This document shows positions 1,928-5,931 of a stretch of 64,000 nucleotides of DNA, piece after piece. Position numbers and translations under genes: made by a program. The notes beneath the pieces are model-generated. The model had not been told where the DNA came from. It ran no database searches and saw only the letters and a program-made list of their open reading frames with translations. The DNA comes from an uncultured Anaerolineae bacterium (GTDB lineage: Bacteria; Chloroflexota; Anaerolineae; Anaerolineales; Villigracilaceae), in assembly GCA_937120535.1 (NCBI GenBank), contig CAKZJX010000052.1, positions 1 to 64,000 of the forward strand, read 5' to 3'. The first letter of the stretch is position 1. Each line of letters opens with the position of its first letter.

Positions 1928-2368
1928 TCAACCGCCAGTTTGAGCTTCTTCTTTCATCTTTTCAGCCACTTTGCGGGCGATCATCCCAAAGCCGGCCCTG
2001 GGACTGGCGATCGTAGCCAGGACCACATCCAGAATGTCCGGCGCAATGCGTTTGATATTGCGCAGGCGTTGAGCCAGGAATCCCTCATTGGCTTGCGATC
2101 CCTTTTGATCTTCCTCCTCAAACATTTGGAGTTCCGATCTTAAGTCTTCTTTATCTGTTGGAGGGAGATTGGCCTGTGCGTCGAGGTCTTGATACACGCT
2201 GGCAAATTTCGGCGGCGCAGGAGCCACGTAGTTGTGATCTCCGGTCACGATCAAACTGTTTTCCAGGTTGCCCCCTATCACTACACTTCCATTGCCGGCA
2301 TAGATCACTTGATCGCGTCCTACAGCCTGACTTTTGGCTGGACGGCGTTTCTTGTTGGTGCTTCTCAT
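1928..2368 (-). CDS. Small protein with VGRDQ beta motif and C-terminal hydrophobic helix
   Basis: 146 residues of unknown function. A basic N-terminus (1-13) is followed by a beta-rich segment (16-48) beginning VGRDQ and with short G-N-S-V and D-H-N turns. The NACHT protein encoded just upstream carries a matching segment near its own N-terminus. Residues 55-90 are polar and acidic. Residues 103-137 form a basic helix, a hydrophobic stretch (about 109-131) with a Pro-Arg-Ala-Gly break, and a second basic helix. There is no signal peptide. A GGAGAA SD precedes the ATG; spacing is 46 bases from the NACHT stop and 12 bases to prsW. I infer an adaptor or effector working with the NACHT protein; the hydrophobic C-terminus could touch membranes. 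It is not assigned to a named family. Confidence 0.8.
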   Translation of the reverse strand: MRSTNKKRRPAKSQAVGRDQVIYAGNGSVVIGGNLENSLIVTGDHNYVAPAPPKFASVYQDLDAQANLPPTDKEDLRSELQMFEEEDQKGSQANEGFLAQRLRNIKRIAPDILDVVLATIASPRAGFGMIARKVAEKMKEEAQTGG

Positions 2369-2414: not shown

Positions 2415-5168
2415 TCAGCTAAACGTCGGGGCAATCGCCACGCGAAAGCCCAAATCATCATTGAAGGTAAGGGGAATAGACCAATTGAAAAATGTAGTGC
2501 GAGCAAACCATTGGTAGCCGATCCACGATCCTCCACGTAAGATTCGATAACGTTGATCATCGTCGTACCAGGAATGAGTCCATTCCCAAACGTTTCCACT
2601 CATGTCCCAAACGCCGAATGGGCTAGCACCTTGAGGGAAGGCACACACAGAAGTCGTGCCGCCCAAGCCAGAACCGCCCGGATCGCTATCCCACGTGTTG
2701 GCAGCGGTTTTGTCAAAGCCATCGCCCCATGGATACTCGTAGCCGGTAGCGCCGCGCGCAGCGTATTCCCATTCTAATGTTGTTGGCAGGCGCACGGTGT
2801 ATCCAGTGGGTATGGAGACCACGTTTTTGGCCAGCCAATTGCAATAGGCTTCTGCCTCATACCAACAGATCCCTACCACCGGGAAAATAGGATTGCCCAA
2901 TTCGATGTTGTACCAGTAATAGGGAGCATTGCGTCGCGACAGAGGCCGATGTTCTAGCCAATCCCGTTCGATAGGATCGAGGGTGCGTTCATCGTAGGTT
3001 CCTGTTCGCCAAGCCCAACCGTTCTCGCTCCAAAACTCGCGATTTTGATAGCCGCCGGCCTGGACGAAGCGGGCGAATTGGGCGTTGGTCACCGGATACT
3101 TGCCTAGCCAGAAGCGATACCTCAATTGTCCTTTTTCCTTCCTTGTCCCAAACAGGAACTCGCCGGCCGGCACTTCGACGAATCGGTCTAAATCGATCGG
3201 GCGCCACCCCAAACGGCCCAATAGCAATCCCGCCCGCCGCCGTAGTTCTGGAGCCACCTGGGCATGTTGCATGGTCGATACCAAGGCCTGTACCGTGCGG
3301 TCTTTCGTTTGGAGTGGGACGCCGCCAGGCCAGGTATCCAGCACAGCCTCGCCGGCCAAGATCACCGCCTCGCCCGGTGCACCTGCTTGGGCTTCCAATA
3401 AGCGTTCCACCACTTCGCCGGCAACTTTTGGGAGTTGCTGACGAATGCCCAGATAGCCGATGGTCAACAGCGTGGGCTCACGCCAGGCCTGCTCTCCGAC
3501 ATGCTGGATCAATTTGTCCACAATCGGGGCGGCATTTCCTTGGCCGAGCAGTGCCAAAGCAACAGCTGAAAGATATTCCTCAAACGTCAGATGGATAAAG
3601 CCGAATTCTCCGGGGCCCCGTTCTAGCAACAGAGCAGCGTGTTCGCGCACATCTTGCAAGAATTGATGAGCAGCCTTTTCAGGCGCAGGGTTACCTTGTT
3701 CGCGGAAGAGCTCTTCCAATTTTCGGCTCAGATCGCCACGGTTGACTAAGCCGATCCCAGGGTTGGTCTCGTGCATCCACAGGGCCAGGGGTGCCAGGAT
3801 GCGTATTGTTTGCAATTCATCCAGATCGCGGCCAGGAGCGCGCCCGCTCAGGGAACGGGCACGATTCCAAGTGGAAAGCAGGGTGGTGACATATTGGTCG
3901 TAGAGTTGCACGCGGCGCTCGGGCAGGGTAACGCCTTGGCGCTTCATTAGCGCGAGGATGGTGAGCAGGAGAGGGGTGGCTGCCAAGCGCCGTACACCAG
4001 GATTGCGATAGATCGCATCGAGCAATTCACGCCGGTCCTGTTCAGCATCAATGCGGGCGATGAAGGTGTCGCCTTGGGCCTGCTTTTCAATGGTGGTGGT
4101 CCAGCGATAGACAAATTCCTCGATCTCGTCGTCGTCAAAATCCACCAGCGTGCATTCGATCAGGCCTTCGGCTGCGGGGCGCACGGCGCGATACCCAACG
4201 ATGCGGCTGGTGAGGACAAATTTATTGCCCTGCCGGCGATGAAAAGCAAAGAAATCCACCACCCGTTCGACCACCGTGTTGCGCAGATTCAGATCGCGAA
4301 CTTCATCCAGACCGTCGAGCAGGATCAGAGCACGGCCGCTTTGCAGCGCTTCGTGCAACATTGGGCCGATGCCGGCCTCGGCGCCGATATCGGAGAAGTA
4401 GCTGGCAATAAACTCATCCAAGCGGATGTCTTCTTCTTGAAGAGCGTTGGCATACACAGAGAGCGGCAGCAAGATGGGCAAGCGATTGTTCAAGCCGAGC
4501 GCCTCACCCTCGCCGCGCGCCAGACGCAAGGCCAAGTATTTCAGGAACGTGGTTTTGCCGGCCCCCGGATCGCCGAGCACGATCAGGCCGGGGTGGGCAC
4601 GAAGGATATCCAGCAGGGGAACAGGATCGCTCAGCCGTAGGGGGTGGGCGCTTTCGTCTATTGGGGCGCGGCCAGCCAGACTAAGTTCGCGCTTCCACGT
4701 TTCGCCGTTAGGGAGTTCAAGACGAGCCTTAAGAGGAACGTACACATCAAGGAGCCCTAGTTTTAGAGGAATGCGATCCAAAACCCCCATGCCTTTTAGG
4801 CTAAGGTAACTGTGTCGATCGAGCAGATAGGTGAGGTAGGAGACCGTAGCCCTTTGTAGATCGGGAGTGGGCAACGTGGATGGAACCCCACGCCAGAGCC
4901 GGTCTGCGATAATCACTGTCTGGGCATGGACGATAGTGCTATCACGGACATCTCCCTGTACAGCCAAGCTGGCATCTCCGGCTTGCACAGTCTGATCTCG
5001 CCCAACGATGTGTTGTCGGTTGAGCAAAGCGGCTTGAATGGCTTGCACTTGCGCCCGAAGTTCGTCTAGCTTTTGGTTGACGATCTCGTCGCCCAATTCC
5101 GGTCGCAGATTTTCTAAGCTGGCTATTTTGGCCTGTAACTCGGCCAGGCTTTCCTTTCGCCCGGACAT
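2415..5168 (-). CDS. NACHT STAND ATPase with C-terminal FGE/C-type-lectin-like domain
   Basis: A 917-residue signal-transduction ATPase. In order: coiled coil (about 4-50), VGRDQ beta motif (54-87) shared with the next gene, a linker, a NACHT ATPase with Walker A GDPGAGKT at 199-206 and Walker B LILLDGLDEV at 281-290, a helical winged/ARM-like region, and from about residue 670 a formylglycine-generating-enzyme (sulfatase-modifying factor) fold ending GNVWEW, RGGSW, GFRV. The two cysteines needed for formylglycine synthesis are absent from the final segment, so this domain probably binds a ligand. The start at 5168 has a GGAGGG SD four bases upstream; an upstream ATG at 5303 would run into the crp-like gene. 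STAND ATPases of this kind are commonly conflict or defence sensors. Downstream lie the small beta-motif gene and prsW. Confidence 0.9.
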   Translation of the reverse strand: MSGRKESLAELQAKIASLENLRPELGDEIVNQKLDELRAQVQAIQAALLNRQHIVGRDQTVQAGDASLAVQGDVRDSTIVHAQTVIIADRLWRGVPSTLPTPDLQRATVSYLTYLLDRHSYLSLKGMGVLDRIPLKLGLLDVYVPLKARLELPNGETWKRELSLAGRAPIDESAHPLRLSDPVPLLDILRAHPGLIVLGDPGAGKTTFLKYLALRLARGEGEALGLNNRLPILLPLSVYANALQEEDIRLDEFIASYFSDIGAEAGIGPMLHEALQSGRALILLDGLDEVRDLNLRNTVVERVVDFFAFHRRQGNKFVLTSRIVGYRAVRPAAEGLIECTLVDFDDDEIEEFVYRWTTTIEKQAQGDTFIARIDAEQDRRELLDAIYRNPGVRRLAATPLLLTILALMKRQGVTLPERRVQLYDQYVTTLLSTWNRARSLSGRAPGRDLDELQTIRILAPLALWMHETNPGIGLVNRGDLSRKLEELFREQGNPAPEKAAHQFLQDVREHAALLLERGPGEFGFIHLTFEEYLSAVALALLGQGNAAPIVDKLIQHVGEQAWREPTLLTIGYLGIRQQLPKVAGEVVERLLEAQAGAPGEAVILAGEAVLDTWPGGVPLQTKDRTVQALVSTMQHAQVAPELRRRAGLLLGRLGWRPIDLDRFVEVPAGEFLFGTRKEKGQLRYRFWLGKYPVTNAQFARFVQAGGYQNREFWSENGWAWRTGTYDERTLDPIERDWLEHRPLSRRNAPYYWYNIELGNPIFPVVGICWYEAEAYCNWLAKNVVSIPTGYTVRLPTTLEWEYAARGATGYEYPWGDGFDKTAANTWDSDPGGSGLGGTTSVCAFPQGASPFGVWDMSGNVWEWTHSWYDDDQRYRILRGGSWIGYQWFARTTFFNWSIPLTFNDDLGFRVAIAPTFS
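4908..5009 (-). other. Shared VGRDQ beta motif (copy in NACHT protein)
   Basis: Encodes residues 54-87 of the NACHT protein. It aligns without gaps to residues 15-48 of the 146-residue neighbour: VGRDQ, then AG two to four residues later, a serine-valine strand, a glycine turn, then S-x-IV. Both copies lie ahead of the rest of the protein. It may be a small beta domain for homotypic pairing of the two proteins. Confidence 0.6.
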
Positions 5169-5247: not shown

Positions 5248-5931
5248 CTAAATCCATGGGAGAAAAGCATCTCGATTAACAATGCGGATGCGGCGATCTT
5301 CAAGGCGGATGGCGCCGGTTTGTTCCAGCTCTTTGAGCGAGCGGGCCACCACTTCGCGAACGGTACCCAAATGGGCGGCCATCTGCTCTTGGGTGATGCG
5401 AGTTAGGATGATCCCTTGTTCGTCGGCCGGCAGTTCGCTGAGGAAGCGCGCCAGACGGTGGGTAATCTGATAGAAAGCCATCTCGCTGAGGGCGTCAACC
5501 ATGGAACGCAACAGGCGCCCAAAATTCAGGATCACCTTCTGGGCAAAAGGAGGGTGCTGCAAGATCAGCTCGCGCAGGGTGGTGCTCGGCACCAGCCAAA
5601 CCCGACATTGCTCCAGCGCCTCAACATTCACCGGGTTCGGGCCGCCATCAAAGGCCGGAACCTCGGCAAAGGTTTCTCCTGGGTGCAAAACGCGAATAAT
5701 CAGTTGCTTGCCCTTCGTCGAAAGGCGATAAATCTTGGCGCTTCCCGATAACAGCAAATACATGCCTTCACATGGGTCGCCTTCCAAGAACAGGATTTCG
5801 CCACGTTCATATTGACGCAAATGCATACAGCGGGCGACCTGCTCAATCAGGCTCTCCGGCATTGTGTCAAAGTATTCATGCTTTCGTAGGAAATTCAATC
5901 TTGTTTGGAAATCGGATACCAGGAAGCGCAT
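5248..5931 (-). CDS. Crp/Fnr-family transcription regulator
   Basis: 227 residues with the normal layout of the Crp/Fnr family: a cyclic-nucleotide-binding-like beta barrel (about 15-140), a long dimer helix, and a winged helix (about 165-220) with a recognition region reading TVREVVARSLKEL. No cluster of four cysteines is present, so it is not an Fnr-type iron-sulfur sensor. The beta-barrel motif GGPNPVNVEA differs from the cAMP-binding loop of Crp, so the ligand is unknown. The start lies three bases after the phosphoribosyltransferase stop, showing co-transcription. The NACHT gene starts 79 bases downstream. It may control that locus, but this is inferred from position only. Confidence 0.9.
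   Translation of the reverse strand: MRFLVSDFQTRLNFLRKHEYFDTMPESLIEQVARCMHLRQYERGEILFLEGDPCEGMYLLLSGSAKIYRLSTKGKQLIIRVLHPGETFAEVPAFDGGPNPVNVEALEQCRVWLVPSTTLRELILQHPPFAQKVILNFGRLLRSMVDALSEMAFYQITHRLARFLSELPADEQGIILTRITQEQMAAHLGTVREVVARSLKELEQTGAIRLEDRRIRIVNRDAFLPWI

Follow-up and report, generated by a model that had tools for sequence, protein, structure and literature searches.

A NACHT protein from an Anaerolineae bacterium with a conserved C-terminal segment of DGR-target type

In a 64,000-nucleotide stretch of DNA from an uncultured Anaerolineae bacterium (hereafter "the window"), one gene encodes a protein that ends in RGGSW...GFR. This is the kind of C-terminus that diversity-generating retroelements (DGRs) diversify. 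The initial annotation proposed that this end resembles formylglycine-generating enzyme (FGE), lacks its active-site cysteines, and might be a DGR target. Is the segment diversified, and if not, what is its likely role? All position numbers refer to the window unless a locus is named, and the labels G, C, and L denote genomes, contigs, and loci of the compared set. The relevant features of the gene are:

2415..5168, minus strand: NACHT-FGE gene (the frame is open to 5303; judging from the sequence, the ATG at 5168, which follows GGAGG, is the probable start)
2436..3188, minus strand: FGE-sulfatase / C-type-lectin-fold domain (Pfam, AlphaFold2, Foldseek)
4098..4586, minus strand: NACHT NTPase domain (Pfam)
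2442..2537, minus strand: RGGSW...GFR segment, equivalent to a DGR variable region and conserved here

The FGE-sulfatase domain of Pfam matches amino acids 705-955 with 171.5 bits; the cut-off is 23.3, so this match is not due to chance. The same gene encodes a NACHT domain (amino acids 239-401, 46.8 bits versus a curated cut-off of 26.7; amino acids are counted from base 5300), which was not part of the initial annotation. By its domains, the protein is of the STAND/NACHT type. Read on the minus strand, it ends in RGGSWIGYQWFARTTFFNWSIPLTFNDDLGFRVAIAPTFS-stop, and the codons following RGGSW are ATC GGC TAC, as had been claimed. There are no cysteines between RGGSW and the stop, which we take to be the stretch that corresponds to the C-terminal loop with FGE's two active-site cysteines. 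(The exact cysteine columns are unaligned here because the phmmer alignments of true FGEs end before the loop.) The AlphaFold2 model of the FGE domain has a pTM of 0.82 and a mean pLDDT of 76.9, and its Foldseek matches include EgtB, SUMF2, and FGE; the structure matches listed include a "C336S mutant" of FGE. These results bear out the description of a cysteine-free, FGE-like C-terminus. They support the view that this end looks non-catalytic and is of the type that DGRs target: by fold and position, with a C-terminal RGGSW...GFR in the register of the templates described below, this is a DGR-type variable protein.

We searched the window's own genome, which is 98% complete and a draft of 140 contigs, for the parts of a DGR. 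The repeat in the window matched only itself, so the template that the initial annotation had suggested looking for was not found anywhere in this genome. As controls, the same type of search recovered a phage template-target pair at 5e-37, and local BLAST recovered 10/10 known template repeats at E <= 1e-25. Pfam matches to reverse transcriptase (RT) are on two contigs, C16 and C124, and none are on C52, the window's contig, in agreement with the earlier claim. The RT on C124 has an RVT_N domain, and its gene is interrupted by the contig end. bAvd is found on C16 only, besides a sub-threshold match on C23. A search of the genome for a DGR-type RT thus did turn up one DGR, in what we read by eye from the neighboring ORFs as a phage tail region:

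L003 (contig C16), 3770-6583: complete phage-type DGR with RT, bAvd, template (4916-5036), and variable region (5400-5506) in a target with the FGE fold

The template and the target of this DGR have 10 differences in 107 aligned bases, all at template adenines. At E <= 0.001, the template matches only itself and its own target, so we rejected the idea that the phage DGR acts on the window gene. In sum, we found no template repeat with adenine-specific differences for the window gene, and no RT and Avd at its locus or fitting it elsewhere in the genome.

In contrast to the window gene, close relatives elsewhere in the order are genuine DGR targets. In nine fetched loci, we identified 12 template-variable pairs, which were recognized by their adenine pattern, and 182 of their 184 mismatches are at template adenines. 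(The same scan of nearby copies also gave variable-variable pairs, as well as copies without the adenine pattern, whose mismatches at copy adenines were 11/29 in L075, 2/9 in L078, 17/34 in L108, and 13/32 in L113.) RT and/or Avd genes adjoin the repeats of the relatives that are targets. Two close relatives, with 57-60% identity over the protein, are DGR targets whose template repeats keep the register of the window's segment. The targets G031:C112 (12/13 mismatches at adenines) and G404:C431 (20/21) represent two lineages closest to the window's clade. A more distant relative (52% identity), from a Candidatus Contendobacter MAG, is also a target, with 15/15 mismatches at adenines. The fetched stretch of G031:C112 contains a template and Avd and no RT that we could find; the RTs of G031 are on other contigs. 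The templates of the relatives approximate RGGSWNNNxRNxRCAYRNRNxPDNFNNNxGFR, and both their length and their register equal those of the window's segment. More broadly, bAvd matches are present in 35 of 61 related genomes (23 above the cut-off), and a comparison of coordinates places many of them next to NACHT-FGE paralogs. L102 and L227 have RT and Avd, and no template was found at either.

Two other observations concern these loci. In L079, near 2762, the variable region hits a stop directly after GFR, and the partner's continues with CTVSLAISES. In L075 and L076 (G049:C18, at about 26-52 kb), at least five FGE-ended genes are clustered, NACHT paralogs included; bAvd had no match in G049 at E <= 0.001.

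If the window gene were diversified, its orthologs should differ in the segment. Our ortholog search used only the NACHT and middle part as its query, which leaves the motif out, and found matches at E <= 1e-100 in 43 of 400 genomes of the order. Among the 30 loci listed, all 28 with a readable C-terminus carry the motif with few changes, and so do five further orthologs at 72-76% (G084, G276, G343, G019, and G027). Overall, the motif is nearly unchanged in 33/33 readable orthologs whose NACHT part is at least 72% identical, the window included. (L204 and L218 stop short of the C-terminus and so are outside the 33, as is G378.) The next relatives, at 62-69% (G031, G049, G404, and G227), do not have the motif. 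We will use "frozen" for the fixed-motif orthologs of the window gene with no DGR parts found at their loci.

Several measures agree that strong purifying selection acts on the segment that would be the variable region. Among 13 orthologs (window included), 19 of the 27 residues in the segment are invariant, and the residue is the same throughout at 10 of the 12 codons that would be mutable under the relatives' templates. The dN/dS ratios, which are rough with dS close to saturation, are 0.035 for the 27 segment codons versus 0.123 for the rest of the FGE domain and 0.115 for the NACHT and middle part. Across 78 frozen pairs, the mean identity is 0.76 in the body and 0.87 in the segment. In the matched control of seven pairs from DGR-linked branches, the identities are 0.55-0.85 in the body and 0.12-0.50 in the segment (the lowest value is owed partly to a one-residue length difference). 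One comparison omitted L188, which has a stop. The codons that were suspected of being variable are instead conserved between species, so we found none that are hypervariable. The suggestion of a DGR target holds for the fold, for the type of C-terminus, and for two close relatives, and fails for the window gene itself.

DGR parts are missing from the frozen loci as well. An adenine-tolerant scan of the available flanks found a template repeat at 0/40 frozen-type loci (31 distinct sequences), and no RT, Avd, template, or DGR relic was found beside the frozen loci examined. We also scanned contigs in the databases with the pattern W[IM]GYQWF. The resulting set of 70 loci has 41 distinct sequences that are selected for the motif, and these loci were kept out of the conservation count. 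The pattern had 60 matches in viral contigs, none of which encode a relative of the sensor, and 486 plasmid records match, none with a single place covering over 80% of the query.

There may be a second frozen segment. L110 (G006:C28) and L111 (G031:C141) have nearly identical segments, RGGSFNDT[VA]FGSR[AT]SYRR[GP]YPPG[FY]FYPFLGFR, in two genera, and no template for them was found in the available flanks.

How did the motif become fixed? We built a phylogenetic tree without the columns of the segment; the outgroup, which was our choice, contains DGR-linked loci, and L119, L083, L141, L122, and L151 were left out as near-identical or short. The 22 frozen rows form one clade (support 97/93). Near it, at a fork that is partly unresolved, are the DGR targets L079 and L226 (100/100), L227 (which has RT and Avd), and L092 (which has neither). 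The tree requires three changes, or four if the ancestor is taken to be without a DGR; this margin is thin, given a partly unresolved tree. DGR cassettes do decay in the NACHT-FGE family, because only an RT stub remains behind the segment in the paralogs L095, L096, L099, and L101, and the RT is in pieces behind the NACHT-FGE gene of L116. (The RT piece of L104 is near a contig end and was excluded from this count.)

The codons of the window are consistent with past diversification. All 12 selected mutable-site codons are reachable from AAY or AGG via adenine changes if third bases are matched by class; two of them are TGG at sites that read AGG in relatives. Of the adenine-bearing codons in the G031 template, 16/18 fit the window at codon positions 1 and 2; template codons 9 and 23 are misfits. 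Compared to the relatives' templates, the adenine bias of the window is modest (p = 0.006-0.03 for codon positions 1 and 2, 0.03-0.08 for all positions), and it is confounded because the same sites form a putative binding surface anyway. After GFR, the tail is VVIAP in both the window and L092, and SLAISE[SF] in the DGR sisters. A DGR past can only be inferred, because no relic lies beside any frozen locus examined. We favor loss of a DGR over its never having been there by about two to one.

The main competitor, which we regard as possible and rather doubtful, is that the clade never had a DGR: the FGE-like binding domain of this NACHT protein would be an ordinary conserved one, and its relatives would have captured cassettes separately. 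The frozen loci without relics fit this account, and so does the lack of any cassette that we could find at L092 and L146, which lie outside the frozen clade. Similar templates at DGR loci in distant NACHT branches, as if cassettes move, fit it too. It has more trouble with the DGR parts in several lineages around the clade (L079, L226, and L227; L093, L094, L228, and L143), with a segment whose length and register equal those of the templates, and with the recurrent decay of cassettes in the family. A live DGR target whose template is missing from the assembly is next to impossible, even though the fold and position are of the DGR type and the genome is a 140-contig draft. The residues are conserved between species, and G125, a genome in a single contig, carries the motif once, with an RT match of only 30% identity. 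G002 similarly has one copy of the motif, and its best matches to a cellular DGR RT are one at 30% and a stop-containing stub of 33 residues. G005 keeps the fixed motif despite two intact cellular DGRs; outside the gene itself, its repeat has only scaffold matches of 25-29 bases, plus a 70% match on C147 with another query. With no template copy, conserved residues, and positive controls, we rejected a live target for the clade.

Alternatively, the domain could be a working oxidoreductase of the EgtB or FGE type. EgtB is the best Foldseek match (1.8e-15), and EgtB and OvsA are among the phmmer matches. Against this, the score of 86.9 bits is far short of the curated EgtB cut-off of 360, and there is no cysteine in the loop that holds the two active-site cysteines of FGE. 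Also, the best solved relative across the RGGSW...GFR stretch (by phmmer) is SUMF2, which is not known to have FGE activity, and the conserved sites are those that are randomized in relatives. We consider an enzyme very unlikely.

We propose instead, with a probability of roughly 0.6, that the segment is the end with which a STAND/NACHT sensor, of a family often diversified by DGRs, would bind its ligand, and that selection has kept one variant of its surface, with no DGR parts at the locus. The genes next to the sensor suggest how it might signal:

1928..2368, minus strand: TCAD2-domain gene, separated from the upstream sensor gene by 46 bases
2246..2335, minus strand: N-terminal module of the TCAD2 protein that matches the sensor's
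4929..5018, minus strand: the sensor's N-terminal module, which is similar to that of the TCAD2 protein

The alignment of the two modules scores 66, versus 41 for the best of 500 shuffles; in G031, the corresponding values are 158 and 51. The TCAD2 gene adjoins the sensor in 12/12 orthologous loci, and in a second set, both genes are in one locus in 18/18 cases (8 of these loci are in both sets). One part of a putative TCAD2 ternary conflict system, the TCAD2 partner gene, is present beside the sensor. A gene for a PrsW-type protease (932-1915) follows 12 bases after the TCAD2 gene, and was not found beside the pair in the 12 orthologous loci. PADLOC recognized neither the sensor nor the TCAD2 protein nor PrsW. 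In 13/19 frozen loci (such as L125, 2224-7406), genes for a FIST-domain protein and a GAF histidine kinase lie upstream, a hint that part of the clade operates in a sensory context; they are absent beside the sensor in the window and its genus.

Under the reading that we prefer, the ancestor would have been a DGR target whose cassette was later lost. The fixed surface would bind one invariant ligand, binding would drive oligomerization of the NACHT domain, and the signal may reach the TCAD2 protein via their common N-terminal module. The near-unchanged tail across many species suggests a sensor fixed on one target. We infer a NACHT sensor that descends from DGR targets and whose binding site was fixed, probably via DGR loss, on an invariant ligand. 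We lean slightly towards the fuller account: once a DGR-diversified NACHT receptor had arrived at a useful specificity, its cassette was lost, and the single site has been maintained since then in many genera, as in an innate receptor of the pattern-recognition type. If so, a hypermutating immune-type sensor became fixed, and diversifying and fixed receptors coexist in the genome G005.

The window protein has the fold and the GNVWEW, RGGSW, and GFR motifs of the SUMF2 / FGE / EgtB family (PF03781), but unlike those proteins, its loop is cysteine-free and of DGR-template length, and it is fused to NACHT. In STAND systems with a shared effector-associated (EAD) domain (PMC7159879; PMC10907252, DGR 6), the sensor and a small neighbor likewise share an N-terminal module; in our case, a TCAD2 protein takes the partner's place, and we saw no constant protease or nuclease gene. 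Similar, too, are the DGR-diversified STAND/NACHT-CLec sensors of Dore et al. 2024 (PMC10907252), which also combine NACHT with a C-terminal FGE/CLec domain and RGGSW...GFR. Direct relatives of the window gene are such targets, whereas the window locus is without RT, Avd, or template repeat, and its segment is conserved, not variable. That article states that CLec domains on STAND proteins are not yet experimentally characterized. For ligand identification, a member with an invariant surface would offer the simplest starting point, as the target should not differ from strain to strain.

In the titles and abstract openings of a partial literature, we found no report of a fixed DGR-type region that is conserved across genera. 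If our reading is true, this is a measured case of selection fixing DGR-type variation, a possibility raised for all3226 of Nostoc PCC 7120 (PMC7517822). That remnant variable protein is likewise a DGR-type target without a nearby RT, and its authors suggest that the diversification parts were lost after a variant was selected. all3226 retains remnant template-variable homology in one genome, whereas the window gene has none left and is conserved across many species.
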